Translations under genes and position numbers: made by a program | Shown: in pieces, positions 1-13,635 of the stretch | Layout of the letters: every line of letters begins with the position of its first letter | Numbering within the stretch: the stretch's first letter is position 1 | Source of the DNA: Nocardiopsis sp. CC223A | GTDB taxonomy: Bacteria; Actinomycetota; Actinomycetes; Streptosporangiales; Streptosporangiaceae | Length of the DNA stretch: 64,000 bases | Reading direction: 5' to 3' | NCBI RefSeq assembly: GCF_030766825.1 | Contig: NZ_JASFDV010000004.1 | Location: 62,001 to 126,000, forward strand | Notes under the pieces: model-generated | The model's input: only the letters and a program-made list of their open reading frames with translations | Databases searched by the model: none | Told to the model about the DNA's origin: nothing

Positions 1-686
1 ACGACCCGGACAGCCACGCCGCGGCGCTCGACGGCGTCGACCGCGTCTACCTGGTGCCGCCGCCGGACGCCGACCCGGTCGAGGTCATGGGGGCGTTCCT
101 GGAGCGGGCGCACCGCCGCGGTGTGCGCCGGGCGGTGCTGCTCGGGGCGTCGGCCGTTCCCACGGGCGGGCCGATGGTGGGACGGGTGGCGCGGATGGTA
201 CTGGAGGTGTTCGAGGAGGCGGTGGTGCTGCGGCCGTCGTGGTTCATGCAGAACTTCACGGGGGACCACCCGCACGCGGCCGGGTTCCGGGAGCGGGGGG
301 CGATCGCGACGGCCACCGGGGGCGGACGGGTGGGGTTCGTCGACGTCCGCGACATCGCGGCGGTCGCCGCGCACGCGCTGACCGACGCGGAGCCGATCGA
401 ACGGGAGCCGGTCCTCACCGGACCCGAGGCGCTGAGTTACGACGAGGTCGCCGCGATCTACGGGGAGGTGACAGGGCGAGAGGTCGTGCACGAGTCGCTG
501 GAGCCCGGTGCCGTGGAGCGGGCGCTGGCGGCGGCGATGCCGGTGGAGGTGGCGCGGATACTGGTGGGGCTCGACGGGCTCATCGCCGCGGGCGCCGAGG
601 ACCGCGTCACGGACACGGTCGAACGCATCGCCGGTCGGCCGCCGGGCGACCTCCGCACGGTGCTCCGCCGCGACCTCCGCCCCTGA
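1..686 (+). CDS. NmrA-like NAD(P)-binding oxidoreductase, 5' truncated by window edge
   Basis: The reading frame is open from base 3 (D-P-D-S-H-A-A-A-L-D-G-V) to a TGA at 684-686, so the N-terminal Rossmann fold with its dinucleotide-binding loop lies outside the window. The visible part has 'VYLVPPP' ending a beta strand, 'RRAVLLGASAV' as a following strand/turn, 'VVLRPSWFMQNF' typical of NmrA/atypical short-chain reductases, and 'GFVDVRDIAAVAAHAL', the usual segment before the C-terminal helical part. Such proteins bind NAD(P)(H) and act as sensors or reductases, and the substrate cannot be told from sequence. A GTG at 54 could be mistaken for a start, but coding continues upstream of it. 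The next gene follows after 86 bases on the same strand. Confidence 0.85.
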   Translation, partial: DPDSHAAALDGVDRVYLVPPPDADPVEVMGAFLERAHRRGVRRAVLLGASAVPTGGPMVGRVARMVLEVFEEAVVLRPSWFMQNFTGDHPHAAGFRERGAIATATGGGRVGFVDVRDIAAVAAHALTDAEPIEREPVLTGPEALSYDEVAAIYGEVTGREVVHESLEPGAVERALAAAMPVEVARILVGLDGLIAAGAEDRVTDTVERIAGRPPGDLRTVLRRDLRP

Positions 687-772
687 GATATTCCCGTGCC
701 GTTCCTCCAGATTCCTCCCGGAACACGCAGCGATCGGCCCGTGCTGCAACGGTGGACGAGAGGAGATCCACC

Positions 773-1606
773 GTGACGATCGCATGGGGTGTCGAGGCCC
801 TGGACCTGGCGGCCTACCTGGACCGGGTGGGGGTGCCGGAGCGGCGGCCGGACGAGGAGTACCTGGACCGGCTGTACGAGGCGCACATCAGGGCGTTCCC
901 CTTCGAGACGGTCGACGCGCTCCTGGGCCGGGCCCCGGCGGTCGACGTACGGGGCGTGCAGGAGAAGTTCCTGGGTGGAGGCCGGGGAGGCTACTGCTTC
1001 GAGCACGGGGTGCTGTTCGCGGCCGCGCTGGAGCGGCTGGGGTTCGAGGTGCACCGGCGGCTGGGCACGGTCGGCCCGGCGGGTGAGAACGCCCGGACGC
1101 ACCTGCTGGTGGAGGTCGTGGTCGACGGCCGCCGGCTGCTGGCCGACCCGGGGTTCGGATCGGGCATGCGGCGTCCGATCGAGCTGAGGGACGGGGCCCG
1201 GAGCGGTGGGGGCGGGATGGCCTTCGCACTCGCCCGGGTGCCCCGCGGCAGGTCGTGGGGGTGGGAGCTGCGCAAACAGCGCGGCCATGCGTGGGAGCCG
1301 CTGCACGTGACGCACGAGTCGGAGGTGTACCCGGTGGACCTGGTCGCGGGGAACCACTTCGTGGCGACGCACCCGGACTCGGTGTTCCGGAGGATGCTGG
1401 TGGTGACGGGCTTCCTGCCGGACGGGATCCACGCGAGCCTCACCCAGGCGTCGGTCACCCTCCGCGCCCCGGACTCCCCCACCCGGCACGAGGAGCTGGC
1501 CCCGGCCGACCTCGATCCGTGGCTGGACCGCCTCGGCGTCCACTTGTCGGGGGACGACCACGCGCTCCTGCACAAGCGCCTCGCCGAGCTGTCGGCCCCC
1601 GTGTGA
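773..1606 (+). CDS. nat: Arylamine N-acetyltransferase
   Basis: 277 residues, the usual size for bacterial NAT enzymes, which move an acetyl group from acetyl-CoA to arylamines or hydrazines through a cysteine thioester; some relatives close amide bonds in polyketide pathways. The catalytic triad is visible: Cys75 in 'RGGYCFE', His110 in 'ARTHLLVEV' and Asp125 in 'ADPGFGSG'. The N-terminal 'FPFETVD' and C-terminal 'HLSGDDHALLHKRLAEL' also fit the family. The GTG start at 773 has a strong ribosome site (gaggaga) seven bases upstream. No polyketide synthase is near, so a detoxification or housekeeping role is more likely. It sits downstream of the NmrA-like reductase on the same strand. Confidence 0.93.
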   Translation: MTIAWGVEALDLAAYLDRVGVPERRPDEEYLDRLYEAHIRAFPFETVDALLGRAPAVDVRGVQEKFLGGGRGGYCFEHGVLFAAALERLGFEVHRRLGTVGPAGENARTHLLVEVVVDGRRLLADPGFGSGMRRPIELRDGARSGGGGMAFALARVPRGRSWGWELRKQRGHAWEPLHVTHESEVYPVDLVAGNHFVATHPDSVFRRMLVVTGFLPDGIHASLTQASVTLRAPDSPTRHEELAPADLDPWLDRLGVHLSGDDHALLHKRLAELSAPV

Positions 1607-1663
1607 CCGGAACCGCATGTGCTGGGCCGACCAGCGGTGTTCGATGATCTTCGGAACCGCGTC

Positions 1664-1692
1664 CGGCCCATCCCCGCGTGCGCGGGGCTCAC
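1664..1692 (-). repeat. Solitary CRISPR repeat, 2 mismatches to the array at 5.7 kb
   Basis: A 29-base sequence that matches the repeat unit of the array at 5723-5995 at 27 of 29 positions, in the same orientation. It keeps the palindrome ccccgcgtgcgcgggg. The two differences are c for t at the fourth base and c for g at the third base from the right-hand end. No second repeat is found 32 bases away on either side, so it stands alone, about 4 kb from the array. Confidence 0.85.
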
Positions 1693-1800
1693 GCGGTGCC
1701 CGTGAGCACCCTGCGGCAATTCAGCTTCATGGGGAACGAGCGCTGGAGGCCCTGCGTCCAACTGGTCATCCCATCGCAACCTCCACGGGAAAGTCCCCCA

Positions 1801-2354
1801 TGTTCGACATCATCGCCGACGCCGTCTCGGCTGGGCTTGTCTTCCTCGGCGTGGCCGTCACGCTCTTCGGTATCTGGGGCACATGGAAGGAGTGGGCACC
1901 GGAAGGCGTAGGGTTCTAGGACCCGATCATCCGGGCCCTGATGGTCCCCTGGAACGCCGCAAGACGCCACTTCCAGCGCATCTTCGGTAAGGAAACCCCC
2001 AAGCACGCCTCCGGTACCGCGACCGCGACTATCCAGGTCGAAGGATTCGTCTCGGGGTATCGTGGCCCAGGCCCCCTTCCCTCTCCCGAGAACCTTGAAG
2101 AGTTCGCGCAGGCCGTCAGCGATCAGCTCCGGGAGGCATACACCATCGCTGGCAAGGCCAAGGCCCAGTTCGAGGAAGAGCAGTGGCGGGCGAAGAAGGT
2201 CGAGAAGGAGCTCCGCGCCCAGCTCGCGGAAGCCAACCAGGCCGTGGACGCCAAGATGCGTAAGGCCATGACCGACGGCATCCACCTGGAACTGTTCGGC
2301 GTGGCCCTGGTCTTCGCCGGTGGAGTGCTCCAGGTCCTCAAGCTGATCTTCTGA
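1801..2354 (+). pseudogene. Two-TM coiled-coil membrane protein split by an in-frame TAG
   Basis: From the ATG at 1801 the frame encodes a short lumenal start and a transmembrane segment (about residues 10-27, 'GLVFLGVAVTLFGIWG'), then meets TAG at 1917-1919. The same frame continues without further stops to TGA at 2352-2354: a soluble part, a charged coiled coil ('FEEEQWRAKKVEKELRAQL') and a second transmembrane segment at the C-terminus ('ELFGVALVFAGGVLQVL'). Read through, this gives about 184 residues with a sensible membrane hairpin topology. I infer that one gene has been broken by a point change such as CAG to TAG. Alternatives are two separate small proteins (a restart near ATG 1941) or stop-codon readthrough. 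A site gggaaag precedes the ATG. Family not recognised. Confidence 0.65.
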
Positions 2355-2366
2355 GAACACGTGACG

Positions 2367-2402
2367 AGCGCCTCCGCTCCTCAGTTGAGGAGCGGAGGCG
2401 CT
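2367..2402. terminator. Bidirectional hairpin terminator
   Basis: A perfect 17-bp inverted repeat with a two-base centre (2367-2383 against 2386-2402) lies between the stop of the rightward broken membrane protein and the stop of the leftward HTH gene. It is placed to end both transcripts. Confidence 0.85.
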
Positions 2403-2406
2403 TTCG

Positions 2407-2664
2407 TCATGCCCTCTTCCCCTTGCCGATCTGGTCGACCCGGGCGGGGCTGAGGCCGAGCTCGGCGGCGAGGGCGCGCACGGTCATGCCCTGCTCGCGC
2501 AGCTCCGCGACGGCAGGCTGACGGACCGCTTTGAGGGCTTCTTCCACTTCGGCGATGGCGGCGAGGATCTCGCCAACGGTGCGAGCACGCGTGAGCGGGT
2601 CCGTCTCCTCCCCAGCGAGAGTGGGGAGTTTGCGCAGGTGGGCGAGGGTTTCGGTGATGTCCAT
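2407..2664 (-). CDS. Small helix-turn-helix regulator (sigma region 4-like)
   Basis: 85 residues. The N-terminal half is helical and acidic ('VGEILAAIAEVEEALKAV'); the C-terminal half is a helix-turn-helix, 'MTVRALAAELGLSPARVDQIGKGKR', of the kind found in sigma-70 region 4 and small phage-like regulators. It probably binds DNA as a dimer. The ATG at 2662-2664 has no ribosome site: a -10-like tacact lies only six bases upstream, so the message may be leaderless. Divergent from a tiny membrane peptide, with a shared inverted repeat between them that could be its own operator. No known name. Confidence 0.75.
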   Translation of the reverse strand: MDITETLAHLRKLPTLAGEETDPLTRARTVGEILAAIAEVEEALKAVRQPAVAELREQGMTVRALAAELGLSPARVDQIGKGKRA

Positions 2665-2670
2665 GGCGAC

Positions 2671-2735
2671 AGTGTAGGCGCCTGAACATTTTTTTTGTCC
2701 AGACGGGCTGACATCACAGTAAAGGCGCCTATGCA
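2671..2735. promoter_or_regulatory. Divergent promoters with a TAGGCGCCT inverted repeat
   Basis: Leftward: -35 tggaca (complement of 2696-2701), 19-base spacer with an A8 run, -10 tacact (complement of 2671-2676), which would start RNA at or next to the ATG of the HTH gene. Rightward: ctgaca 2708-2713, 16-base spacer, tatgca 2730-2735. The nine bases taggcgcct (2675-2683) recur inverted as aggcgccta (2723-2731), one copy touching each -10. That placement fits repression of both genes by one protein, most simply the adjacent HTH protein. Promoter calls are by eye. Confidence 0.5.
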
Positions 2736-2773
2736 ATGGAGGCACAACAGAATAATAGAGGGGAGGTGAGAGA

Positions 2774-2917
2774 GTGACTCTCTTCCAGGCGATCACGCTG
2801 ATGATCGCGCTCGCGGCCCTGACGCTCGCGACGGTCCGGTTCATCCAGGATCGGCCGAAACCGGGCAAGGGACGCCACGCGATCGGACGCCACCGCCGCC
2901 TCCATAAGAAGCGGTAA
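2774..2917 (+). CDS. 47-residue single-TM peptide
   Basis: A GTG start at 2774 follows an excellent ribosome site (ggggaggtgag). The product has one transmembrane helix at residues 4-20 ('FQAITLMIALAALTLATV') and a strongly basic tail ('GRHAIGRHRRLHKKR'), so the tail should lie in the cytoplasm. The gene is divergent from the small HTH gene and 81 bases ahead of another tiny membrane protein. Function unknown; small membrane peptides in such cassettes can be toxins, chaperones or sensor partners, but nothing here decides. Confidence 0.6.
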   Translation: MTLFQAITLMIALAALTLATVRFIQDRPKPGKGRHAIGRHRRLHKKR

Positions 2918-2998
2918 AGCGGACCCCGGATGCTCACATCATCCGGGGTCCGCCCCTCCCAGAATCGCACACCGCACCACCGCACAGAAAGGGAAAGC

Positions 2999-3160
2999 AT
3001 GAGCACGAAGCTCGCCATCTGGGTCACCTGGGCGGCCCTCGCCGTCGCCCTGGTCGCGCTCGCCGTCGGCGCCCCCTGGTGGGCCTGGGCCATCTGGGCC
3101 GTGATCGTCGCCGGGGCCGCGGTCCTGCACACGCTCGCCTACCAGGCTGGCCTGATGTAG
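2999..3160 (+). CDS. 53-residue two-TM hydrophobic protein
   Basis: ATG at 2999 with upstream site gaaaggga. The product is almost wholly hydrophobic, with helices at about residues 5-24 and 28-47 joined by 'GAPWWAW', rich in Trp and Ala. It lies just downstream of the 47-residue peptide and is followed by a hairpin, so the two are probably one transcript. I do not recognise a family. Confidence 0.6.
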   Translation: MSTKLAIWVTWAALAVALVALAVGAPWWAWAIWAVIVAGAAVLHTLAYQAGLM

Positions 3161-3177
3161 TCCAGGGCCGCTGGCGT

Positions 3178-3197
3178 CCCGCCCCATTCGGGGCGGG
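3178..3197. terminator. Hairpin after the small membrane genes
   Basis: An 8-bp perfect stem (3178-3185 against 3190-3197, loop attc) begins 18 bases after the stop of the 53-residue protein and is followed by ctttcg. Likely end of that short operon. Confidence 0.6.
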
Positions 3198-3596
3198 GCG
3201 CTTTCGCCGTTTCCGGGGCCGGTCAGCCCGGCCGGTGGCAGGATGCCCGACATGAGCGACTACGTGACCGTACACCGCCGAGCCCGGAGGGGACCCAGCG
3301 ATGTGGCACTGGCGGGGGTGGATGTGCTGACACGCGGGCGCCCCCGCCCACCATCACGGTGAGCGGGGGCATTCGCCTGTGGGCGGGGCCGGGGATCTTT
3401 CCTGGGTCCCCCGGCCCCGCTGGCCGCTCCGTATTCCCCCCACGGGCAGAGCGGCCGTCCAAGAGGGGCCACCGGAACCGAGCCCGGTGGCCCCGGGCCG
3501 CCTCGCACATCCCCTCAGATGTGGCGCCGGATGCGCCGAGTGCCAGAGGCGGCCGTCTGAACCGTGCGCCCACGGACAGGCGGGCGCACGGAGTCC
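3198..3596. other. Non-coding gap with three hairpins between convergent operons
   Basis: I see no convincing gene here. Three strong stem-loops are present: 3340-3370 (8+4 bp with one mismatch), 3465-3494 (perfect 11 bp, ggggccaccgg against its complement) and 3562-3591 (perfect 10 bp). The last lies five bases beyond the stop of the leftward three-gene operon and is its probable terminator. A 36-codon frame at 3252-3362 lacks a good ribosome site and runs into the first hairpin, so it is not called. Confidence 0.6.
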
Positions 3597-3770
3597 CTAG
3601 TCGCCCAGGTCGTAGTCGACGCCCCGGCGGCGGCCGTCCTCACCCAGCAGGGGGAGCCCAGCCTCGCGCTGGGCCGCGATGCGCTCCCCCTGGAGGCGGA
3701 CGGCGCGCTTCTCCTCCTCGGTGAGGTCGTCCGGGATCGGGTCCTCGGCCGGGTTGACATGGCGGCTCAT
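3597..3770 (-). CDS. 57-residue charged hypothetical protein
   Basis: Last gene of a leftward three-gene overlapping operon; its ATG (3768-3770) overlaps the upstream stop as ATGA, which implies translational coupling. The product is short, acidic at the start ('AEDPIPDDLTEEEKRAV') and ends 'RRRGVDYDLGD', probably a helix with disordered ends. No family recognised. The coupling is the main support for it being real. Confidence 0.6.
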   Translation of the reverse strand: MSRHVNPAEDPIPDDLTEEEKRAVRLQGERIAAQREAGLPLLGEDGRRRGVDYDLGD

Positions 3771-4084
3771 GGATGGCTCCTCTGGGTCGGCACGGGGGCG
3801 GTCTGGCGTTTCTGGAGACGCTCCTCCAACTGCCCGGCGGTGGGCTCCACCTCGGTGCGCCACGGGGCGGCCGGGTCGCGGTGAACGGCCACCCACAGGG
3901 CGCCGGTCCAGGCGATGCGGTGGGTGCGCCCCCACGCGGTGCGGAGTCGTTCGAGGGTGACCTCCGGACGCTCCCACCGGTCTCCGCGGGCGTCCTCGTG
4001 GTCACCGGTGTGGTCGCGGTCGAGCACGCACACGCGGGGGCGGCCGCCGCTGTCGCGGCACTCGGAGTAGCAGACGCCGGTCAC
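3767..4084 (-). CDS. 105-residue hypothetical protein with N-terminal Cys/His motif
   Basis: Middle gene of the leftward operon. Its GTG start (4082-4084) overlaps the upstream stop as GTGA, and its stop overlaps the next ATG. The N-terminus 'VCYSECRDSGGRPRVCVLDRDHTGDHED' holds three Cys and two His in a pattern like a small metal-binding or disulfide fold, seen in many short streptomycete proteins ('C..DHTG.H'). The middle is Trp-rich ('AWTGALWVAVHRDP'). Gene starts upstream of 4084 would add a low-quality Pro/Arg-rich segment, so they are rejected. Function unknown. Confidence 0.6.
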   Translation of the reverse strand: MTGVCYSECRDSGGRPRVCVLDRDHTGDHEDARGDRWERPEVTLERLRTAWGRTHRIAWTGALWVAVHRDPAAPWRTEVEPTAGQLEERLQKRQTAPVPTQRSHP

Positions 4085-4290
4085 GCCCCCACCCCCAGAC
4101 CCTCCAGGCCGACCAGCACCCGGAACAGCAGGGCACGGCCCGGCGCAGGCCGGGGCGGCGTGGTCCGGCGGTGGCGGCCGACCGGGGCGTACCGGCGACA
4201 GCGGCGGGCGCGGCGTCGCCGCGGGAGCGAGTTCTCGGGGGCCGGCCACTGAGCGGCCGCCCTCTCCGAGCAGGACTGGTATCGCGCCAT
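4081..4290 (-). CDS. 69-residue basic hypothetical protein
   Basis: First gene of the leftward operon. The ATG at 4288-4290 has an ideal ribosome site (ggaggt, six bases upstream), and its stop overlaps the next start as GTGA. The product is Arg-rich in the middle ('PRRRRARRCRRYAPVGRHRR') and hydrophobic at the end ('RALLFRVLVGLEGLG'). Composition is close to what any GC-rich frame would give, so the ribosome site and overlap carry the call. No family recognised. Confidence 0.5.
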   Translation of the reverse strand: MARYQSCSERAAAQWPAPENSLPRRRRARRCRRYAPVGRHRRTTPPRPAPGRALLFRVLVGLEGLGVGA

Positions 4291-4526
4291 GGGCGCACCT
4301 CCATCAGGGAGCCGGATGGGAGGTCCGGCGATTCATCAGGTGGCTCTATGTTGACGCATCGCAGTCAATTTCTCAATGCCCACTTTGCAATTCGGTGCGA
4401 GAATCTATAGAGACAGGTGCTTCATTGGGCTCGAAGCCCACTAAGTGATGGGCGGTGTACGAAATGCCTGATCAGCGAGGTTCCGCCGTAGGATCGAGCC
4501 AGCCGATGGCGAGGAGCGAGACACCC
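4291..4526. promoter_or_regulatory. AT-richer divergent promoter region
   Basis: A 236-base gap between the leftward three-gene operon and the rightward HTH gene, visibly lower in GC than its surroundings. It holds ttgcaa at 4386-4391 and tataga about 15 bases further right, a possible promoter for the HTH gene, and a 6-bp hairpin tgggct/agccca at 4426-4440 that could be an operator half-site pair. All by eye and weak. Confidence 0.35.
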
Positions 4527-5366
4527 ATGGCCAAGAGCCCCACCCTGCGACGGCGCCGCCTCTCCCGGCGCCTGCGTGAGCTGCGCGAGGCGAAGGGGTA
4601 CACGTCTGCGCACGTCACCGCCGAAGCCAAGCGGCTCGGGAAGGGGCGGTGGTCACGTGGGAAGCTCACCCGGATCGAGAACAACGAGTGGCTCCGCCCG
4701 AGCGTGACGGACGTCGAGGCGCTACTCGACATCTACGAGGTCACCGACCCCGCAGAGCGCGAGGCCTACGCCCGGCTCACGCGAGAGGCCCGGCAGGCCG
4801 GGTGGTGGGTCGGCTACAAAGATGTCCTCGGGGCTGGCACCTACGTGGGGCTGGAGCTGGAGGCGGAACGCATCCGCACCTACGAGGCGCTCGTAGTCCC
4901 GGGTCTACTCCAGACCGAGGAGTACGCGCGGGCGATCATCCGCGGGCACGGTGTGGCAGATGAGTCGACGGTGGAGCGCCGGGTCGAAGCCCGCATGGCG
5001 CGCAAGCAGATCCTCGCGCTTCCGAGCGGTCCACGCATCTGGGCGATCATCGACGAAGCCGCCCTTCGGAAGATCCCGGACGACATCCGGGAGGCCCAGA
5101 TCAGGTACCTGCTTGACGTGCAGCGCCCCGAGTTGCGCGTGCAGGTGCTGCCCGACTCAGCCGGATTGCACCCCGCGACAGCCGGGTCGTTCTCGATCCT
5201 GGACTTCCCCGAGGACCCCTCTGTGGTCTATCTGGAGGCGGTGATGTCCCAGCTCTTCTACGAAGACCCTGTGGAGATCGCGCACTGCGAGGTCGTGTAC
5301 GACCATGTACATGCCGCGGCGCTCAGCGTCCCGGACTCCCGGGTTTTCCTGGAGACCCTCATCTAG
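4527..5366 (+). CDS. XRE-type HTH regulator with DUF5753 (WhiJ-like)
   Basis: 279 residues. N-terminal helix-turn-helix of the Xre type (about residues 8-72, 'RRLSRRLRELREAKGYTSAHV...KLTRIENNEW'), then a C-terminal DUF5753 domain with hallmark motifs 'YKDVLGAGTYVGLELEAERIRTYEALVVPGLLQTEEYARAII' and 'VQVLPDSAGLHPATAGSFSILDF'. Proteins of this kind are very numerous in streptomycetes and pair with DUF397 partners such as those at whiJ and abaA, where they affect development and antibiotic production. The ATG at 4527 is preferred over 4455 and 4506 because gaggag lies ten bases upstream. The DUF397 gene follows after 12 bases, so they form one operon. Confidence 0.9.
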   Translation: MAKSPTLRRRRLSRRLRELREAKGYTSAHVTAEAKRLGKGRWSRGKLTRIENNEWLRPSVTDVEALLDIYEVTDPAEREAYARLTREARQAGWWVGYKDVLGAGTYVGLELEAERIRTYEALVVPGLLQTEEYARAIIRGHGVADESTVERRVEARMARKQILALPSGPRIWAIIDEAALRKIPDDIREAQIRYLLDVQRPELRVQVLPDSAGLHPATAGSFSILDFPEDPSVVYLEAVMSQLFYEDPVEIAHCEVVYDHVHAAALSVPDSRVFLETLI

Positions 5367-5378
5367 AAGGCAGCACCG

Positions 5379-5564
5379 ATGCAATCCCACCTGATCTTCC
5401 GCAAGTCGTCCTACAGCCAGGGCACCACCGAGAACTGCGTGGAGGTCGCCGACCTTCCGGCCGGCGGGGCCGCCGTGCGTGACACCCAGAACAGGGAACT
5501 GGGGCACCTGGAGGTCCCCGCCGCCGAATGGACCGCCCTCCTGCGAGCGGCCACCCGCTCCTGA
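5379..5564 (+). CDS. DUF397 protein, partner of the WhiJ-like regulator
   Basis: 61 residues with the full DUF397 signature: 'FRKSSYSQGTTENCVEVADL' at the start and 'VRDTQNRELGHLEVPAAEWTALL' at the end. DUF397 proteins are encoded next to Xre/DUF5753 regulators and are thought to modulate them. The gene starts 12 bases after the regulator, with a gaaggcag site upstream, and is followed by a hairpin terminator. No sign of decay. Confidence 0.92.
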   Translation: MQSHLIFRKSSYSQGTTENCVEVADLPAGGAAVRDTQNRELGHLEVPAAEWTALLRAATRS

Positions 5565-5576
5565 CCCCGACAACAG

Positions 5577-5611
5577 CGAAGGCCCCGACCGGCTGGCGGT
5601 CAGGGCCTTCG
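5577..5611. terminator. Hairpin terminator after the DUF397 gene
   Basis: Inverted repeat 5577-5590 against 5598-5611, 13 pairs and one mismatch, beginning 12 bases past the DUF397 stop. A probable intrinsic terminator for the HTH/DUF397 operon. Confidence 0.75.
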
Positions 5612-5722
5612 TCGTGCATCAACCTGATGAATCGATGCAATCCCGGGGACACTCTACCCCGGCCGGGTGATGACGGGGAAGGACCAAGGGCCTCGACTAC
5701 GCGGTGGCCAGCTCGCCCAGCC

Positions 5723-5995
5723 CGGTCCATCCCCGCGTGCGCGGGGCTGACGGTGGTCTTCGCCAGCCGGTCGATGTGGTCCGCGGTCCATCCCCGCGTG
5801 CGCGGGGCTGACGCCACGCTGACGGGCCCGAGCTCGACCTCGCCCGGTCCATCCCCGCGTGCGCGGGGCTGACATCAGCGGCGACCGGTCACCCTCCCCG
5901 GCGGCCGGTCCATCCCCGCGTGCGCGGGGCTGACACCGACGTGCACCGGTACCCGAAGTACTACATCGGTCCATCCCCGCGTGCGCGGGGCTGAC
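5723..5995 (-). CRISPR. Type I-E-like CRISPR array, 5 repeats and 4 spacers, no cas genes in window
   Basis: Five 29-base repeats at 5723-5751, 5784-5812, 5845-5873, 5906-5934 and 5967-5995, all identical by eye, are separated by four different spacers of exactly 32 bases (5752-5783, 5813-5844, 5874-5905, 5935-5966). The repeat has the palindrome ccccgcgtgcgcgggg. Read on the minus strand it begins gtcagccccgcg and ends gggatggaccg, the layout of E. coli-type (I-E) repeats, so the crRNA handle would be atggaccg and transcription runs leftward from a leader at about 5996-6100. Perfect repeats and 32-base spacers suggest the array is or was recently active, with Cas proteins encoded elsewhere. 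Confidence 0.97.
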
Positions 5996-6171
5996 AGTTA
6001 ACGACCTGGGAAAACGCGGGACGTTATCTCCGCGTTACCTTGCCCGGGGTGGCAACACCACGTCCTCCTGTCAGGGTGGCAGGTGCGAGGCACAGGCTCA
6101 AGGCAGGGAGAGGGCTCGGCGGTGACCCACGTGTGGGACTGCCGAACCTCGGTGGCGGCGATAGCCCGCCA
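5996..6171 (-). promoter_or_regulatory. Probable CRISPR leader
   Basis: The 176 bases to the right of the last repeat hold no gene. The part touching the repeat is AT-richer than the surroundings (agttaacgacctgggaaaac), as expected of a leader, and the repeat orientation predicts transcription from here into the array. I found no clear promoter hexamers. Confidence 0.5.
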
Positions 6172-6603
6172 TCAGGCGAGGAGGTGGCGCAGCTCCTGGA
6201 GGGCGTACCACATGAGCTCGTGGCCGTCGGCGGCGTCGGAATCCGGGTCGGCCGCCGCCTCGGCGATGTCCGGCGCAGCGGCCTCGTCGTCGATGTGCGC
6301 GGAGGCCAGGCGCTTGTACGGGATCGACTCCCCCGTGATGCGGACGCGGACCACGTCCGGTCCCTGGCGGCCCTCCTCCTCGACCAGGTGGTCGGCGAGG
6401 TTCGCGGCGAGTACCACGCGGCGGCGGGGCGCGGCCGGGTCCTGCGCCAGGAGGCGGAGGGACTCCTCGGCGGCCGCGTACATCGCCTCGTACTCCGCCT
6501 CCTCGTCGTCGGTGTCCGCCGCGAACGCCACCGGCACCCGCACCCTCCCCTCGTCGAGGACGGTCGCGAGGGCGGGGAGGGTACTGGGCAGGAAGACGTA
6601 CAT
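6172..6603 (-). CDS. Conserved actinobacterial protein, DUF6912-like
   Basis: 143 residues starting 'MYVFLPSTLPALATVLDEG', which matches the start of a small actinobacterial family (DUF6912) found near HAD-type hydrolases. The rest is acidic and helical, with 'RRVVLAANLADHL' as a central strand-helix and 'DGHELMWYALQELRHLLA' at the end. No catalytic motif or signal is seen; function unknown. The ATG at 6603 has cggagag five bases upstream. It lies 49 bases downstream of the HAD gene on the same strand, so the two may be one operon. Confidence 0.75.
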   Translation of the reverse strand: MYVFLPSTLPALATVLDEGRVRVPVAFAADTDDEEAEYEAMYAAAEESLRLLAQDPAAPRRRVVLAANLADHLVEEEGRQGPDVVRVRITGESIPYKRLASAHIDDEAAAPDIAEAAADPDSDAADGHELMWYALQELRHLLA

Positions 6604-6652
6604 CGCGGCTCTCCGGAAGGTGGAACGGTCACCCAGCAGTCTGCCGCACCCG

Positions 6653-7300
6653 TCAGGCGGCTTCGCTGTCCGCCATGAGGAACCCGCGCAGTTCCCGCGT
6701 GGTCGTCGCCACGTCGGTGTGCAGGATGCCGGTCATCCCGAGTTCCTCGGCCGTGCGGACGTTGTGCTCCAGGTCGTCGATGAACACACATTCCTCGGGC
6801 CGCAGCCCGATCCGCTGACAGGTGTGCAGGTAGATGCGCGGTTCCGGTTTGCGCATCCCCACCTCGCCCGAGATGACCACCTCGTCGAAGGTGGTGGCGA
6901 AGTGCTCGCGCGGGTAGCCGTTCCCCCACGAGTTCGACAGCAGCGCCGTACTCGCACCCGAGCTGCGGGCGTCGCGGAGCGCCTCGTACATGTCGTGGAC
7001 CGGGGCGAAGGAGGCGAACATGCGCTCGATGAGACCCTCGGCGACCACCGGCCCCCCATGGGTGGAGCGCAGCAGCGATGCCAGGTCGCGTTCGAAGCGC
7101 CCGGTGTCGATCTCCCCGCGTTCGAGCGCGTGCACGGGGTTGTCGTCGGCCAGGCTGCCGTCGAAGTACGGAGTCATGACCTCGTAGTAGTGCTCGACGT
7201 CGATCCGGTCGGCGGTCAGCCAGGCCCGGATCCCGTCCGGGAGCGGGGGTGTGAGCACGCCTCCCCAGTCGGAGATGACTCCGCGGCGGGTGCCGTCCAT
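6653..7300 (-). CDS. HAD-superfamily hydrolase (subfamily IA)
   Basis: 215 residues. Motif I is 'ISDWGGVLT' near the N-terminus, motif II lies around 'STALLSNSWG', the motif III Lys is in 'MRKPEPRIY', and motif IV is 'ECVFIDDLEHN'. The cap is the small helical type. The nucleophile Asp is present, but the usual acid/base Asp two residues later is replaced by Gly ('DWGG'), as in the epoxide-hydrolase-like HAD branch ('DFGGV'), so phosphatase activity is uncertain. The ATG at 7300 has ggagggg five bases upstream. Substrate unknown. Confidence 0.88.
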   Translation of the reverse strand: MDGTRRGVISDWGGVLTPPLPDGIRAWLTADRIDVEHYYEVMTPYFDGSLADDNPVHALERGEIDTGRFERDLASLLRSTHGGPVVAEGLIERMFASFAPVHDMYEALRDARSSGASTALLSNSWGNGYPREHFATTFDEVVISGEVGMRKPEPRIYLHTCQRIGLRPEECVFIDDLEHNVRTAEELGMTGILHTDVATTTRELRGFLMADSEAA

Positions 7301-7424
7301 CCGATCCCCTCCATCCGTGTCGTCGTATCACCCGACCTCGGATGCCCGGATCGGGCGGGCAACGGTTCTTCCCGTTCCCCGTCCGTTTCAATCCTTTTGC
7401 CCCATCGGTTCGGGACCGCGGACC

Positions 7425-9035
7425 CTAGTACGAGAGCCCCGCGCCGAACTCGGCCGTGTCCGGGATCGTCACCGGCAGGGTTCCGGTGGGCTCGACCTCG
7501 CCCGCGATGACCCGGGCGGCCGCCGCCAGGGACACGTCGACGGCGGAGTACACGGCGACGAACCCGTCGACGTCCGGGGAGGCGGCCAGCGGGTACGGCC
7601 CGCCCTGGGACACCGCGATGGTGGGCGCCGTGGAGCGGCCGACCGGGGCGGTGTTCGCCCCGACGATGACCGCGTCGGCGTCGCCGGTGACCACTTCGAG
7701 CCCCGCCTCGGTGAGCGCCTCGGCGAGCCGGTCGGCGTTGGTGCCCTCGACCCGCACCCGGGTGCCCGGGGCGAGCGGGAGGACTCCGTCGGTGTTGCGC
7801 AGCACCGTGGCGGAGGCGTCCGCCACGCGCTGGGCGGCCTCGGCGTGCGCCGGGTCGGTCACGGCGGCGTCGGCCGCGGCCGGGTCGACCGGGTCCGCCT
7901 CCAGGATGCCGCGCTTCTCCTTGAGGGAGAGGACGCGCAGCACGGATTCGTCGATGCGCTCCTCGGTGAGGCGCCCCTCCTCCAGGGCCGCCTTGATCGC
8001 GGCGACCGCGGCCGCCGGGTCCGGCGGCATCAGGAGCTGGTCCACACCCGCCTCCAGGGCCAGGACCGCGTTCTCCCCGTCGGAGTGGCGCTGGCGCACG
8101 CCCTCCATGTTGAGGGCGTCGGTGGTGACCACGCCGTCGTAGCCGAGCTCGTCGCGCAGGATGCCGCCGATGATCTCCGACGACAGGGTGGCGGGCTCGT
8201 CGGGGTCCAGCTGCGGCATGAGCACGTGGGCGGTCATGACCGCGTCCACGTCGGCCTCGACCGCGGCGCGGAACGGCGGCAGGTGTTCGGCCTCCCACCG
8301 GTCGCGCGGCAGGTCGATGACGGGCAGCCCCGTGTGGCTGTCCACGTCGGTGTCGCCGTGGCCCGGGAAGTGCTTGACGACCGGGACGATCCCCTGCTCG
8401 GCGTAGGCGTCGGCCTCGGCGATCGCCATCTCGGCGACCAGGTCGGGCTCGGAGCCGAACGAGCGGATGCCGATCACCGGGTTGTTCGGGTCGGTGTTGA
8501 CGTCGGCGTCGGGCGCGTAGTTGAGGTTGATCCCCAGGGCGGCCAGCTCGGCGGCGGTCGTCGTGGCGCGCAGCGCGGCGAGTCCGGGGTCGCGGGTGGC
8601 GCCGACGGCCATGGCGTCGGGGAAGCGGGTGCCGACCGGCAGCCGCACCACGAGCCCCTGTTCCTGGTCCACGCCGACGAACAGCGGGATGTCGGACAGT
8701 TCCTGGACCCCGTTGGAGAACTCGGCGATCCGGGCCGCGTCGGTCAGGTTGGCGTCGAAGTAGATGATGCCGCCGGGGCGGAACTCCTCGATTCCGGCGG
8801 CGTTGTCGGCGGCCGCGGTGCCCTGGGCGGTGAGCACCAGGAGCTGGCCGACCTTGGCGTCCAGGTCCATCTCCGCGAGCAGGCGCGGGGCCAGGACCGG
8901 CTCGAAGGGCGGCTCGGACGGGGACGGTTCCTCGCTCGGCGTGGTGTCCACCTCCTGGGGTGCCGTGGTGCAGGCCGAGAGGGCGATCAGGGCGATTCCC
9001 GCGCAGGCCAGGGCTCGGGTGACGGGACTTCTCAT
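7425..9035 (-). CDS. Secreted GH3 beta-N-acetylhexosaminidase lipoprotein
   Basis: 536 residues. An N-terminal lipoprotein signal has its lipobox at 'LSAC' (Cys22). The GH3 barrel follows, with the NagZ-type motif 'KHFPGHGDTDVDSH' (221-234), which carries the His/Asp acid-base pair of beta-N-acetylglucosaminidases, and the nucleophile Asp306 in 'TTDALNM'. A smaller C-terminal domain begins near residue 400. The enzyme probably releases GlcNAc from chitobiose or muropeptides at the cell surface. It sits downstream of GlcNAc-type PTS genes on the same strand, which supports a role in amino-sugar use. The ATG at 9035 has ggagatg upstream, next to an 8-bp hairpin (9049-9056 with 9068-9075). Confidence 0.93.
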   Translation of the reverse strand: MRSPVTRALACAGIALIALSACTTAPQEVDTTPSEEPSPSEPPFEPVLAPRLLAEMDLDAKVGQLLVLTAQGTAAADNAAGIEEFRPGGIIYFDANLTDAARIAEFSNGVQELSDIPLFVGVDQEQGLVVRLPVGTRFPDAMAVGATRDPGLAALRATTTAAELAALGINLNYAPDADVNTDPNNPVIGIRSFGSEPDLVAEMAIAEADAYAEQGIVPVVKHFPGHGDTDVDSHTGLPVIDLPRDRWEAEHLPPFRAAVEADVDAVMTAHVLMPQLDPDEPATLSSEIIGGILRDELGYDGVVTTDALNMEGVRQRHSDGENAVLALEAGVDQLLMPPDPAAAVAAIKAALEEGRLTEERIDESVLRVLSLKEKRGILEADPVDPAAADAAVTDPAHAEAAQRVADASATVLRNTDGVLPLAPGTRVRVEGTNADRLAEALTEAGLEVVTGDADAVIVGANTAPVGRSTAPTIAVSQGGPYPLAASPDVDGFVAVYSAVDVSLAAAARVIAGEVEPTGTLPVTIPDTAEFGAGLSY

Positions 9036-9144
9036 GGTGGTGCTTCATCTCCGGCGGATCGCTGGTTCGCCGGAGACTACCCGCTCCTCAGGACTCCGTG
9101 GGACGACCCGGCCGGTACACGGTACCGCGCACCGGCCGTGTCGT

Positions 9145-9633
9145 TCAGGCCCAGGTGAAGAGCGGTTCCCCGGCGTTCACACCGCCGTCGGCGATGGCGT
9201 CCAGCGCGCCGGGCGCGGCGTCCAGGGCGACGACCGGGACCACGGCGGGCAGCCCGCGCGCGGCCACCGACCCCGGGGACCAGCGCACGACGGGCGTGCC
9301 CGCCGCCACCTCGGCACCCTCCTCGACCAGGAGCGTGAACCCCTCGCCCTTGAGTTTGACCGTGTCGATGCCCAGGTGGACGAGCACACCCCGGCGCTGG
9401 TCGGGCGCCATCACCACGAAGGCGTGCGGGTGCAGTTTGACGAGGGTGCCGTCGATGGGGGCGATGGCCTCCTGGGTGCCCTCTTGCCCGCCCTCCTGGC
9501 CCGGTTCGGGGTGGACGGCGACACCGGGTCCCACCATCCCCTGGGAGAACACCGGGTCGGGCACCGTCTCCAGGGAGAGGGCGGTTCCGCGGACGGGGGA
9601 CAACACGCTCAGGAATCCGTTGACGTCTGGCAT
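9145..9633 (-). CDS. crr: PTS glucose-family EIIA component
   Basis: 162 residues of the Crr type. The phosphorylation-site region reads 'KLHPHAFVV' (His70) and 'VLVHLGIDTVKLKGEGF' (His86), the two active-site histidines of EIIA-Glc. A Gly/Gln/Glu-rich insert (residues 45-54) before 'AIAPIDGTL' is unusual. It takes phosphate from HPr and passes it to EIIB. The ATG at 9633 has gggaagagag upstream, chosen over upstream in-frame codons that add a poor N-terminus. Next to EIIB in the same direction and close to the matching IIC gene. Confidence 0.93.
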   Translation of the reverse strand: MPDVNGFLSVLSPVRGTALSLETVPDPVFSQGMVGPGVAVHPEPGQEGGQEGTQEAIAPIDGTLVKLHPHAFVVMAPDQRRGVLVHLGIDTVKLKGEGFTLLVEEGAEVAAGTPVVRWSPGSVAARGLPAVVPVVALDAAPGALDAIADGGVNAGEPLFTWA

Positions 9634-9737
9634 GGGAGCTCTCTTCCCTGTTGGGGGGACTTCATCCGGACCGACGGAGAACGGGTCTGCGTCCCATCCG
9701 TTACCGGGCGCGGTGTCCGCCGCCGCGACCGCCCGCG

Positions 9738-9977
9738 CTATCCGTCGATGATGTCCCGGATGTCGTCGGTGAGGGAGTCGGCCTCGGGGCCGACGACCAC
9801 CTGGACGACGTTGCCGGAGATCAGGACGCCGTGCGCCCCGGTGTTCTTCAGGGCCTGCTCGTCCACCAGCGACGAGTCGGTGACCTCGGTGCGCAGGCGG
9901 GTGATGCACGCCTCGATGTCCTCGATGTTGTCCGCGCCGCCCAGACCCGCGACGATCGCCGCTGCCTTGTCCGCCAT
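9738..9977 (-). CDS. PTS EIIB component (GlcNAc/glucose family)
   Basis: 79 residues, a free-standing EIIB domain with the phosphocysteine Cys24 in 'IEACITRLRTEV' and the end 'GNVVQVVVGPEADSLTDDI'. It receives phosphate from EIIA and passes it to the sugar carried by EIIC. Streptomycetes also keep the GlcNAc EIIB as a separate gene (nagF). The ATG at 9977 has ggagga upstream; codons further left in frame are not used. It lies between the EIIA and SIS genes on the same strand. Confidence 0.93.
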   Translation of the reverse strand: MADKAAAIVAGLGGADNIEDIEACITRLRTEVTDSSLVDEQALKNTGAHGVLISGNVVQVVVGPEADSLTDDIRDIIDG

Positions 9978-10080
9978 GTGTCGTCCTCCGTGCTGTGCCG
10001 TGGGAACCGCTACGTCCCCGTGGGGGGAGCTTAGGGCCGCGGAACCCGGGGCGCCAGACAACCGCGTCCCGGGGCGTGGC

Positions 10081-11124
10081 TCAGGCCGTCTGGGTGACCT
10101 TGTTGAGGCCCCGGGGGACGTCCGGGTTGTATCCCAGGCGCCGGGCCAGCCGCTCGGTGAGGAGCTGGGCCGGGACGATGAGGTTCATCGGGGAGACCCA
10201 CTCGGGCACGTCCGGGACGGGGACGGACAGGTCGCTGGCCTCGGCCAGGGCGGCCCCGCCGCCGAAACCGAACACCGGGGCGCCGGCGGAGCGGGCCCGC
10301 TCCGCCAGGGCGACCGTGCCCGCGAGGGTGGGGCCGCCGGGGGCGGCCACCAGCAGGGCCGGGGTGCGCGGGTCGACGACGGCGATCGGGCCGTGCAGCA
10401 GGTCGGCGTAGGACAGGCCCATGGCGTGCAGGTAGCAGGCCTCCTTCAGCTTGAGGGCGGCTTCCAGGGCGGTGGAGAAGGCCATGCCCCGTCCGGAGAT
10501 CACCGCCCCCTGCACGGCGACCATGCGCTCGACGATCTCCTCCAGGGAGTCGGTGGGCGCGGCGAGGGTCTCCTCGATGGCGTCGGGCACCCGGTCCAGG
10601 TCCGCCGGGTCCAGGTCGGCACCCAGGCCCAGGGCCAGTACCGCGAGGGCGGCCAGCTGGGTGTTGTAGGTCTTGGTGGCGGGCACCGCGAGCTCGTTCC
10701 CGGCCCGCGTGACCAGGGCGACGTCGGCCTCGGCGGCGAGCGGGGAGTCGGCTCCGTTGGTGACGCCGACGGTGCGGGCCCCGCAGTCGGCGGCCCAGCG
10801 CATGGTCTCGACGATCTCCTCGGTCTTGCCGGACTGGGAGATGGCCACGGCCAGGACGTCGGACAGGTCGATCTTGGCACCGTAGGCGGTGGCGATCGAG
10901 GGCGAGCCCAGGGTGGCCAGTCGGCCGGCGTGCGCCTGGAGCAGGTAGCTCCCGTACACCGCGGCGTTGTCGGAGGAACCGCGGGCGATGAAGAGCACGT
11001 GTTTGGTGGAGCGTCCCAGGGCCGCGATCTCCGAACGGAGCGGGAGCAGCTCCGCGAAGGTGCGGCGCAGCGCCTCGGGCTGCTCGGCGATCTCGGAGCG
11101 CATCACGCTCGTCGTGGTGGTCAT
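10081..11124 (-). CDS. SIS-domain sugar-phosphate enzyme, probable GlcN-6-P deaminase (NagB-II type)
   Basis: 347 residues with two SIS domains (about 45-180 and 215-345) and no glutaminase domain. Motifs 'FIARGSSDNAA', 'ISQSGKTEEIVE' and 'TKTYNTQLAAL' match the isomerase half of GlmS. Stand-alone proteins of this kind in GlcNAc operons (NagB-II/GlmD) convert glucosamine-6-phosphate to fructose-6-phosphate and ammonia. The location beside PTS GlcNAc genes and a DasR-like regulator makes that the best guess; AgaS-like activity is the alternative. No classical nagB or nagA is in view. The ATG at 11124 has aggggaagg upstream. Confidence 0.85.
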   Translation of the reverse strand: MTTTTSVMRSEIAEQPEALRRTFAELLPLRSEIAALGRSTKHVLFIARGSSDNAAVYGSYLLQAHAGRLATLGSPSIATAYGAKIDLSDVLAVAISQSGKTEEIVETMRWAADCGARTVGVTNGADSPLAAEADVALVTRAGNELAVPATKTYNTQLAALAVLALGLGADLDPADLDRVPDAIEETLAAPTDSLEEIVERMVAVQGAVISGRGMAFSTALEAALKLKEACYLHAMGLSYADLLHGPIAVVDPRTPALLVAAPGGPTLAGTVALAERARSAGAPVFGFGGGAALAEASDLSVPVPDVPEWVSPMNLIVPAQLLTERLARRLGYNPDVPRGLNKVTQTA

Positions 11125-11198
11125 GAGGGCCTTCCCCTGCTCGTGCCGGGTGCCCGGCACTCCCGTGAAGTGGTGCGAACCGCCTGCCGTTGGGTGGA

Positions 11199-11241
11199 TT
11201 GACACTCGGGCAGAGCTATGGTCTAGTCCGGACTATACCAG
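11199..11241. promoter_or_regulatory. Palindromic GntR/DasR-type operator in the divergent promoter
   Basis: tggtctagtcc (11219-11229) faces ggactatacca (11230-11240), an 11-bp inverted repeat with one mismatch. Its arms resemble the tggtctag core of DasR sites (dre). A -35-like ttgaca lies at 11199-11204, and the palindrome covers the expected -10 (tctagt or tatacc). The site lies between the leftward SIS gene and the rightward GntR gene, where an autoregulating DasR-type protein would bind. Operator call from the palindrome is good; exact promoter positions are inferred. Confidence 0.75.
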
Positions 11242-11391
11242 TGGCTCCGGGATTGTCCTGATACTCGGGGTACAAGAGGATGTACCCGCGCTCACGGGGC
11301 CACTGCGTCACAGGAGACCGACCACGAGCGAACCCGGAGCGCACCGCACCACCCAGACCGACTCCACCGACCGAGAAGGCCACCCGCACCC

Positions 11392-12129
11392 ATGGCGATC
11401 GATCCCGGCAACCCGCTGCCGAAGTACGTCCAACTCCGCGACCTGATCCTGGACTGGATCACCGAGGCCGGACTGGGCGTGGACGACATGATCCCCTCCG
11501 AGCGGGAGTTGAGCGCCTCCTACGGTCTTTCCCGCATGACCGTCCGCCAGACCATCGACCTGATGGTCTCGGAGGGACGGCTCTACCGGGTCCCCGGCAA
11601 GGGGACCTTCATCGCCCGCCCCAAGATCGAGATGTCCCTGGTCCTGGCCTCCTTCAGCGAGGACATGCGCGCCCGCGGGTACGAGCCCGGGGCGCGCGAG
11701 CTCATCCGCCAGGTCATCCCGGCCAGCGGGCACACCGCCCGCATGCTCGACATCGAGCCGGGCACCCTGGTCCACCACATCGAGCGGATGCGCACCGCCG
11801 ACGACGAACCCATGGCCGTGGAGCGCTCCAACATCCCCGCGGCCATGGCCCCCGGGCTCGAAGCCTTCGACCTCGCCGAACGCTCGCTGTACGAGGTCCT
11901 GGAGAACGAGTACGACATCCTGTTGGATTCCGGGGAACAGACCATCGAGGCCGGGATCTGCGACTCGGCCGACTCCCGCCTCCTGGGTCTGCCGGCTGGA
12001 AGCCCGGTGCTGGTGATGCAGCGCCGCAGCTTCTCCAAGGGACAGTGCGTGGAACTGGCACTGTCCACCTACCGCGCCGACCGGTACCAGCTGCACTCGC
12101 GGCTGGACCCGCGCCGACACGGCGACTGA
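11392..12129 (+). CDS. dasR: GntR/HutC-family regulator, DasR-like
   Basis: 245 residues. Winged helix-turn-helix at residues 8-75 ('PLPKYVQLRDLILDWI', 'IPSERELSASYGLSRMTVRQTIDLMV', 'VPGKGTFIARPK'), then a UTRA ligand domain ending 'YRADRYQLHSRLDP'. DasR in Streptomyces represses GlcNAc uptake and chitinase genes and is released by glucosamine-6-phosphate. Here it lies between genes for GlcNAc PTS proteins, and a matching palindrome lies 150 bases upstream. The orthology is inferred from sequence resemblance and context; another HutC-type amino-sugar regulator such as NagR is possible. Confidence 0.85.
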   Translation: MAIDPGNPLPKYVQLRDLILDWITEAGLGVDDMIPSERELSASYGLSRMTVRQTIDLMVSEGRLYRVPGKGTFIARPKIEMSLVLASFSEDMRARGYEPGARELIRQVIPASGHTARMLDIEPGTLVHHIERMRTADDEPMAVERSNIPAAMAPGLEAFDLAERSLYEVLENEYDILLDSGEQTIEAGICDSADSRLLGLPAGSPVLVMQRRSFSKGQCVELALSTYRADRYQLHSRLDPRRHGD

Positions 12130-12178
12130 TTCTCACCCCCCGCGCCCACCCGGCGCAGGTCCGAGGGAAGGACCCCCC

Positions 12179-13576
12179 TTGAGTTCGGACAACACACCGG
12201 CCACGAAGGCCGCGGCAGGAACGCCCAAGCGCGCCTCCTCCACCCTGGCCGTGCTACAGCGCCTCGGGCGCAGCATGATGATGCCCATCGCGGTCCTGCC
12301 CGCGGCCGCCATCCTCCTCCGCCTGGGTCAGAACGACCTGCTCGGCTCCGACGGCCTGGCCGGGCTGAACGGCATGGGGTGGATGCAGGGTGTCGCGGAC
12401 GTGGTCGGCACCGCGGGCGACTCACTGTTCCAGGCGATGCCGCTGCTGTTCGCGGTCGGTGTCGCCATCGGCTTCGCCAAGCGGTCCGACGGTTCCACCG
12501 CCCTGGCCGCGCTGGTCGGCTACCTGGTGTTCGACCGTGTGTCGAAGCTGCTCTTCTTCGACCTGGGCGGTGAGGTCGGCGCCCGGGTCACCCTGGACGC
12601 GGGCGGCGAGATGATCGTCAACTGGGGTGCGAAGAACCCGAGCGACGTGCTCGGCGGCATCGTCATCGGCCTCCTCTCGGCGCTGCTGTGGCAGCGCTAC
12701 CACCGGATCAAGCTCCCGACCTGGCTGGGCTTCTTCGGCGGGCGCCGCTTCGTGCCCATCCTCATGGCGGGCGTGGGCCTGCTGGTGGCCGTGGCGTTCG
12801 GTCTGGTCTGGCCTGTGGTCGGCTCCCTGATCAACTCCCTCGGTGAGTGGATCATCGGGCTGGGCGCGGTCGGCGCCGGCATCTACGGCATGATCAACCG
12901 CCTGCTGCTGCCGCTGGGCCTGCACCACATCGTCAACTCGGTGGTGTGGTTCGTGTTCGGCTCGTACACCGACCCGGAGACGGGCGACGTGTACCTGGGC
13001 GAGATCAACCGCTACCTGGCCGGGGACCCGACGGCGGGCGGCTTCCTCTCGGGCTTCTTCCCGGTGCTCATGTTCGGCCTGCCCGGTGCGGCGCTGGCGA
13101 TCTGGCGCTGCGCCCACCCCTCGCAGCGCGCCAACATCGGCGGTCTCATGGTCGCCGCGGCGCTGACGGCCTTCGTCACCGGTATCACCGAGCCGATCGA
13201 GTTCGCGTTCATCTTCATCGCCCCGGTCCTGTTCGGTGTGCACATCGTGCTGACCGGCATCTCGATGGCGGTGCTCAACGCCCTGGACACCCAGTTGGGC
13301 TTCGGGTTCTCGGCGGGCCTGATCGACCTGTTGCTCAACGCCACGAAGTCCAATACCGAGGGCCTGTGGATCATCCTCGCGATGGGCGTGGCGTACTTCT
13401 TCCTCTACTATTTCATCTTCATGTTCCTCATCAAGCGGATGAACCTGCCCACCCCGGGCCGGGAACCGGCGGAGGGCGCCGAGTCGGCCAAGGCCGACGT
13501 CGGAGCCCCGGAGGCCGGTGGAACCCCGGACGAGGGCGGGGAGCAGGACGGGGGCCGGGGCGACCGCACCGGCTGA
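12179..13576 (+). CDS. PTS EIIC permease, GlcNAc-specific type
   Basis: 465 residues with about ten transmembrane segments. Family motifs include 'LQRLGRSMMMPIAVLPAAAILLRLG' at the start, 'LLPLGLHHIVNSVVWF' and 'GITEPIEFAFIFIAPVLF', the GITEP loop of glucose-family IIC proteins. It lacks a fused IIB domain, as in streptomycete NagE2, which fits the separate IIB gene nearby. The C-terminal 40 residues are charged and disordered. Start is TTG at 12179 with gaaggac upstream; the next Met codons lie inside the first helix. It follows the DasR-like gene by 49 bases. Confidence 0.92.
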   Translation: MSSDNTPATKAAAGTPKRASSTLAVLQRLGRSMMMPIAVLPAAAILLRLGQNDLLGSDGLAGLNGMGWMQGVADVVGTAGDSLFQAMPLLFAVGVAIGFAKRSDGSTALAALVGYLVFDRVSKLLFFDLGGEVGARVTLDAGGEMIVNWGAKNPSDVLGGIVIGLLSALLWQRYHRIKLPTWLGFFGGRRFVPILMAGVGLLVAVAFGLVWPVVGSLINSLGEWIIGLGAVGAGIYGMINRLLLPLGLHHIVNSVVWFVFGSYTDPETGDVYLGEINRYLAGDPTAGGFLSGFFPVLMFGLPGAALAIWRCAHPSQRANIGGLMVAAALTAFVTGITEPIEFAFIFIAPVLFGVHIVLTGISMAVLNALDTQLGFGFSAGLIDLLLNATKSNTEGLWIILAMGVAYFFLYYFIFMFLIKRMNLPTPGREPAEGAESAKADVGAPEAGGTPDEGGEQDGGRGDRTG

Positions 13577-13595
13577 CCCGCCCGCGGCGGAGTCC

Positions 13596-13635
13596 GGCGG
13601 TGAGGAAATCGGCGCAGCGGGGTCTCCTCACCGCC
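13596..13635. terminator. Hairpin terminator after the PTS IIC gene
   Basis: Perfect 11-bp stem ggcggtgagga (13596-13606) against its complement (13625-13635), 20 bases past the IIC stop and ahead of the next gene's ribosome site. Confidence 0.7.

Follow-up and report, generated by a model that had tools for sequence, protein, structure and literature searches.

The evolution of arrays of clustered regularly interspaced short palindromic repeats (CRISPR) is usually told as a gain of spacers at the leader end and their loss from other parts. Pairs of genes encoding an XRE-type regulator and a DUF397 protein (WhiJ/BldB-like) are described for Streptomyces, in passages of three papers, as regulators of antibiotics and development and as proposed type II toxin-antitoxin systems (PMC10364602, PMC10294661, PMC7159879). 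Arrays cut in two are likewise on record, excerpts of the respective reports describing CRISPR II of Streptomyces avermitilis as split by transposase genes (PMC4762764) and CRISPR2 of Escherichia coli ATCC 8739 as interrupted by an insertion sequence (IS) element (PMC2886076). The present analysis concerns a stretch of 64,000 nucleotides from the genome of Nocardiopsis sp. CC223A (the whole stretch is referred to as the window), in which a block of accessory genes, among them an XRE-DUF397 pair, separates two old CRISPR repeats from a type I-E CRISPR array. The block was very likely inserted into the old end of this array after the lineage of the window had split from that of G020, the nearest relative with this locus.

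The array, the old repeats and their flanks comprise the following features (window positions):

773..1606, plus strand: gene of the left flank, an open reading frame (ORF) which we take to be arylamine N-acetyltransferase-like (NAT), with 87–91 % DNA identity over most of its length in G020, Nocardiopsis sp. N85 and N. flavescens
1603..1631, no strand assigned: decayed CRISPR repeat at the array terminus (18/29), which starts 1 nt ahead of the stop codon TGA of the NAT gene
1632..1663, no strand assigned: spacer-sized gap of 32 nt between the two old repeats, read from the sequence
1664..1692, minus strand: lone CRISPR repeat, 27/29 versus the array repeat
1693..5722, no strand assigned: accessory block of 4,030 bp dividing the old repeats from the array, absent here in G020, N85 and N. 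flavescens
5723..5995, minus strand: type I-E CRISPR array of five perfect repeats and four spacers of 32 nt
5996..6103, minus strand: leader, which aligns with the G020 leader and, over about its first 60 bases, with the N85 leader
6172..6603, minus strand: DUF6912 gene of the right flank (Pfam, 5.7e-35)

The five array repeats (29/29 each) start at 5723, 5784, 5845, 5906 and 5967, i.e. with a spacing of 61 nt, and share one strand with the lone repeat, just as described in the initial annotation of this DNA. The identity of 27/29 reported there for the lone repeat was reproduced, but its decay is less than had been thought, the value rising to 28/29 when the consensus ending accepts CTCAC besides CTGAC; CTCAC endings are common in other arrays of this set. 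The placement of the leader on the right, originally deduced from repeat polarity, agrees with a leader pattern after the last repeat that is common to 33 other arrays, including that of G020. Assignment to type I-E is based on 29-nt repeats, 32-nt spacers (289 of the 319 spacers collected have this length), a leader at one end and the type I-E cas genes that the genome carries. Two array spacers yielded weak phage matches (87–90 %, E 0.08–0.3), and no phage match was obtained for the gap at 1632..1663. The 18/29 repeat at 1603 is located exactly one 61-nt period to the left of the lone repeat; as background to this score, 62 of 59,491 window positions reach 18, corresponding to about 0.1 % per position. 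Outside 1560–6040, no repeat match of at least 22/29 was detected in the window (59,491 plus-strand and 63,972 minus-strand positions).

The same site was compared in relatives from a set of 40 genomes of the genus (39 besides that of the window), from which relatives of the NAT gene were recovered. Among the three relatives with the locus, G020 is nearest by its right flank (94.0 % versus 90.4 % and 89.0 %). Both flanks are syntenic, the left one (window 1–1587) being 91 % identical over 1.6 kb and the right one (window 6164–12000) 94 % over 5.8 kb, and between the same flanking genes G020 carries one unbroken array of 12 repeats and no block. A related genome with a continuous array across the site had been called for by the initial annotation as a check on its proposal that the block was put into an older array, and the G020 array, which joins both flanks without the block, supports this proposal. 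The lone repeat lies 57 nt and the G020 terminal repeat 63 nt after the NAT stop, so that the far-left repeat indeed occupies the trailer end, as had been suggested from its orientation; a weak repeat-like match (19/29) is found 59 nt before the G020 terminal repeat. Two observations that had been named as speaking against insertion, i.e. a lone repeat far from any array and relatives with the block but no left repeat, were not made: the lone repeat shares its position with the G020 terminal repeat, and the whole block occurs in none of the 39 other genomes.

At the corresponding site of N85 (L101), two repeats (22/29 and 24/29) are followed by leader-like sequence without the block, and on the leader side by a DUF397 gene and an XRE-like gene (the latter named by eye). 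The first of these repeats starts 1 nt before the NAT stop and thus at the same offset as the window's repeat at 1603; therefore, the NAT stop marks the former start of the array, and the window retains its two old repeats there. The N. flavescens site (L096) contains neither a repeat of at least 21/29 nor the block. In the NAT gene tree the window groups with G020 (split support 0.988), N85 and N. flavescens falling outside. Given this sister relationship of window and G020, and with the block lacking in all three relatives, a single gain in the window's lineage is, on these sequence comparisons, the shortest and most likely history.

The right edge of the block is marked by a relative of its XRE-DUF397 module in G044:

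5683..5722, no strand assigned: probable right junction of the block, between the end of the G044 alignment and the first intact repeat

This relative is alignable with about 80 % identity until about 5682 and diverges thereafter, so that the junction likely lies within 40 nt of the array repeat, a position which fits insertion in or beside a spacer. Around the G044 match, no repeat of at least 20/29 was present in 3.6 kb and no array in the 12.9-kb stretch. The lower GC content ascribed to the block holds on average (68.6 % versus 74.0 % for 1–1606 and 70.8 % for 6001–20000) and is uneven, ranging from 55 to 76 %. Deletion of a longer array, which the initial annotation had listed as an alternative, is possible as an event accompanying the insertion because repeat numbers differ.

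Repeats separated from their arrays also occur elsewhere in the genus. By means of a pattern consisting of last repeat plus leader, 34 arrays were retrieved from 14 of the 40 genomes, and the flanks of all 34 were inspected for stranded repeats, defined as same-strand repeats of at least 24/29 on the trailer side and set apart from the array. Seven of the 34 leader-bearing arrays possess them (those of the window, L057, L063, L077, L078, L081 and L092), with two stranded repeats at L057 and three at L078; the one at L077 lies past a neighbouring 17-repeat array having its own leader. Opposite-strand repeats of at least 24/29 apart from other arrays were found at none of the 34 arrays. A 23/29 match at position 2915 of the reverse complement (rc) of L057 was not counted, as part of a repeat is fused there to other sequence. 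Misassembly of drafts is an unlikely cause, considering that flanks are syntenic and that L057, L078 and L081, which show the same pattern, sit on contigs of 5.8–7.2 Mb.

The cargo of the gaps differs between arrays and comprises, as named by eye from translations, an acetyltransferase, a hydrolase, a methyltransferase, VOC-like and YcaO-like proteins and a peptide cluster. In the species pairs G055 versus G047 and G013 versus G018, the shared flank ends about 76 or 313 nt from the array in one species, and in its counterpart several extra kilobases plus a stranded repeat are present; a similar kind of difference exists between C13 of the window's genome (G000) and G020. Separately, four loci contain neighbouring arrays of the same orientation with their own leaders, 1.2 to 6.1 kb apart (L056:7548–9513, L077 (rc) 7564–14941, L082:9591–16210 and L090 (rc) 321–3054).

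The following features were recognized within the block:

1800..2354, plus strand: gene broken by an in-frame stop, with ORFs 1800–1919 (ending in TAG) and 1941–2354
2407..2664, minus strand: 85-aa predicted helix-turn-helix (HTH) protein, with weak Pfam HTH matches that are all under cut-off
3597..3770 and 3767..4084, minus strand: two small ORFs without Pfam match
4527..5366, plus strand: XRE-type regulator, HTH_31 plus DUF5753 (Pfam, 8.9e-12 and 4.1e-51)
5379..5564, plus strand: DUF397 partner protein (Pfam, 2.8e-18)
5577..5612, plus strand: strong hairpin 3' of the DUF397 gene, a predicted terminator (inverted match)

The description of the block's genes as partly broken applies to one of them only, namely that at 1800–2354, whose two ORFs share a frame; for ORF 1941–2354, a search of 5.8 billion proteins at E 1e-3 returned no relative besides itself. 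The 85-aa HTH protein has 11 other relatives, all from Nocardiopsis where an organism name is given. A transposase-type HTH (0.013) ranks among its sub-cut-off Pfam matches, and one relative is source-labelled 'predicted transposase YdaD'; the protein is, in our judgement, too short for a transposase. In G020, an 81 % DNA relative of its gene is situated 226 bp away from a different array, at its trailer end. At three other arrays (L057, L061 and L063), relatives of ORF 3767–4084 lie about 225–245 bp past the leader end, and one is found away from arrays (L075). With an HTH_31/DUF5753 gene followed by a DUF397 gene, the right part of the block qualifies as an XRE-DUF397 pair, and the predicted fold of 5571–5620 downstream of it has −31.4 kcal/mol (z −5.3). 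Among the loci compared, nothing matched the left part (1693–2420) with an E value better than 0.03. None of the eight block ORFs tested matched a transposase or integrase over the Pfam cut-off, nor was an integrase detected within 3 kb of any of the 15 arrays that G000, G020 and G023 contain. Elsewhere in the window, to the right, a raiA RNA was identified (20028–20294, minus strand, 144.5 bits).

Genes for DUF397 proteins are found near arrays unusually often. Across 14 genomes, 593 matches to PF04149 were counted in about 89.7 Mb (rounded sizes), and the vicinity of arrays was searched with a custom profile built from two loci. Ten of the 34 arrays have a DUF397 gene no more than 3 kb away (about 1.4 expected; binomial 7e-7), and six have one within 250 bp (0.15 expected; 9e-9). 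The arrays are non-independent; when grouped by judgement into about 28 families, six have the gene within 3 kb (8e-4) and four within 250 bp (7e-6). For G000, G020 and G023, the DUF397 lists of which are complete, 9 of 15 arrays are concerned (0.65 expected), as compared to at least 1 of 15 within 3 kb for the acetyltransferase family PF00583 used as control in the same three genomes (0.9 expected). The six close cases and N85 agree in having the DUF397 end directed towards the array. The gene is on the trailer side in three of the close cases (the window, L092 and one array of L064) and on the leader side in the other three (G023 arrays L058–L060), as it is in N85. Because the close cases are split between both sides, the association of DUF397 with arrays is not the same thing as array interruption. 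At L058, L059 and L060, which have related leaders, the DUF397 gene lies about 235 bp past the last repeat, and array and gene look as if copied together. A second DUF397-like gene of the window (34241–34456, minus strand) is distant from this array.

The proposed insertion can be pictured as a passive process. The old end of an array would be a tolerated landing site under little selection, where foreign DNA, once arrived, would be kept. Such DNA would sever the oldest repeats from the leader-driven transcript, and the stranded repeats, presumably no longer transcribed, would decay. The XRE-DUF397 pair may represent a regulator or toxin-antitoxin-like pair travelling between such sites. No role of the block in immunity is claimed.

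Among the alternatives, an exchange of repeat-bounded cassettes, with repeats seeding recombination and blocks moving from array to array in a somewhat integron-like fashion, fares best and is nevertheless unlikely. Integron platforms combine a site-specific recombinase with cassettes that have exact ends at the recombination site. Cassette exchange would account for the beads of L057 (G020), where a methyltransferase-like and then a VOC-like gene (both named by eye) are each bounded by repeats, for the same peptide-biosynthesis-like cluster occurring in opposite orientation inside the interrupted arrays L078 and L092 (G005 and G055), and for relatives of block pieces beside other arrays. However, no recombinase was recognized in the block, the native flank of the XRE-DUF397 module continues beyond the gene to at most 40 nt from the array, the module is present in G044 without any repeat, and exact repeat-to-repeat transfer was not seen. 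Moreover, the peptide cluster resides near repeats in only two of the eight genomes with a match of at least 1 kb and was thus rejected as array-specific cargo; of the six others, one carries it on a contig of 5.5 kb and another shows a 22/29 match at a distance of about 9 kb. The broader notion that Nocardiopsis arrays are a cassette platform, on which accessory genes, above all XRE-DUF397 pairs, are loaded and shuffled between arrays, is similarly doubtful; if true, it would lead one to expect repeat-gene-repeat strings, and the XRE-DUF397 pair would contribute to keeping the array in the genome. Passive insertion into a weakly selected array end is favoured over cassette exchange.

It is quite improbable that the repeats originally enclosed the block and that G020, N85 and N. 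flavescens lost it, e.g. by recombination between flanking repeats. Direct repeats could cleanly excise a block, and arrays at orthologous sites vary greatly, but losses in three lineages would be needed instead of one gain, with window and G020 being sisters. Very improbable is a function of the lone repeat and its decayed partner as a CreA-like guide RNA repressing a nearby gene. CreA-type repeats have a gap sequence whose seed matches a nearby promoter next to a protospacer-adjacent motif (PAM). The arrangement of a better repeat, a 32-nt gap and a decayed repeat does resemble CreA, described with one or two ectopic repeats in part of the respective report (PMC9458426), yet the same positions form a plain old array end in G020 and N85, PAM-adjacent seed matches in window 1–6100 amount to three (200 shuffled spacers: mean 1.3, maximum 8), and, over the first 12 bases, the best match does not stand out from those of shuffled spacers. 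That the lone repeat matches by chance or is a stray placed independently, the latter possibility having been raised in the initial annotation, is hardly credible, for although the same genome has a repeat-like unit (21/29) upstream of cas3, no match of at least 23/29 was found in 1.85 million positions (1,847,850, both strands of 65 other loci) and the lone repeat occupies an orthologous position in G020 and N85.

Several points weigh against insertion of the block into the old array end. The comparison set contains one genome per species, so that all comparisons are between species, and the block edge is mapped on the right side only. Neither a target-site duplication nor inverted repeats at the edges were convincing among the repeats listed or by eye. 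A donor of the whole block was not found, DNA relatives matching pieces only (63–93 %), and the block may therefore be a mosaic assembled in several steps. As to the other arrays, L087 has a separated repeat (24/29) on the leader side, the sole case of this kind, and the variable trailers of L079/L086 and L064-/L083 lack stranded repeats of at least 24/29. Since some flanks end at contig ends and the scanned stretches are unequal, those on the trailer side being mostly longer than those on the leader side, the asymmetry between both sides is suggestive only. Insertion at the old end also leaves the leader-side XRE-DUF397 pairs of N85 and G023 unexplained.

With respect to the CRISPR machinery, C12 of G000 encodes Cas3, Cse1, Cse2, Cas7e and Cas5e, and Cas6e is also present. 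A search with PF01867, aimed at Cas1 and not at Cas2, returned nothing in the G000 draft, the completeness of which is rated at 100 %; five ORFs from L163 9910 onward (C12) have no NCBIfam match, and no Cas1 was recognized after Cas6e (L163:9700–12600). Because Cas1 was not found, the G000 arrays may be read-only and no longer growing. In G020, which has the unbroken array at the site, Cas1 is encoded next to Cas6e. The solitary repeat-like unit of G000 C12 (21/29, L163:2267–2295), about 360 bp upstream of cas3, is a possible site of cas self-regulation. Outside the genus, the Saccharomonospora phage PIS 136 (JX006077.1:15678–15889) appears to hold a small CRISPR array whose repeat is similar.

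Next to spacer gain and loss, the old end of arrays thus seems also to take up whole genes repeatedly, and the repeats stranded in the process would mark the former reach of an array. On this basis it becomes possible to examine whether arrays serve as neutral landing sites or draw in particular genes. The overrepresentation of DUF397 genes near arrays offers a connection, open to testing, between CRISPR loci and a large gene family whose function is uncertain. Among the titles and starts of abstracts searched, no report of accessory genes at Nocardiopsis array ends and none linking DUF397 with CRISPR arrays was found.

In comparison with known systems, the locus shares with CreTA, a toxin-antitoxin system guarded by ectopic repeats as outlined in part of its description, the presence of repeat-like units that stand next to small genes and outside an array; in contrast, the repeats of the window are remains of an array end, and their target matches are no better than chance. 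The order of the XRE-DUF397 pair in the block, an HTH_31-DUF5753 gene followed by a DUF397 gene, is that of the Streptomyces pairs, for which the passages cited above contain no link to CRISPR arrays, whereas DUF397 is unusually frequent beside arrays here. A further likeness is to IS-interrupted arrays, where an array is likewise cut in two by inserted DNA and where, according to the excerpt on S. avermitilis, a type I-E actinomycete is also concerned. In the passages on these arrays, the insert consists of transposase genes or an IS element, whereas in Nocardiopsis it comprises accessory genes without a recognized recombinase, is situated at the old end of the array, and the pattern recurs within the genus with varied cargo.

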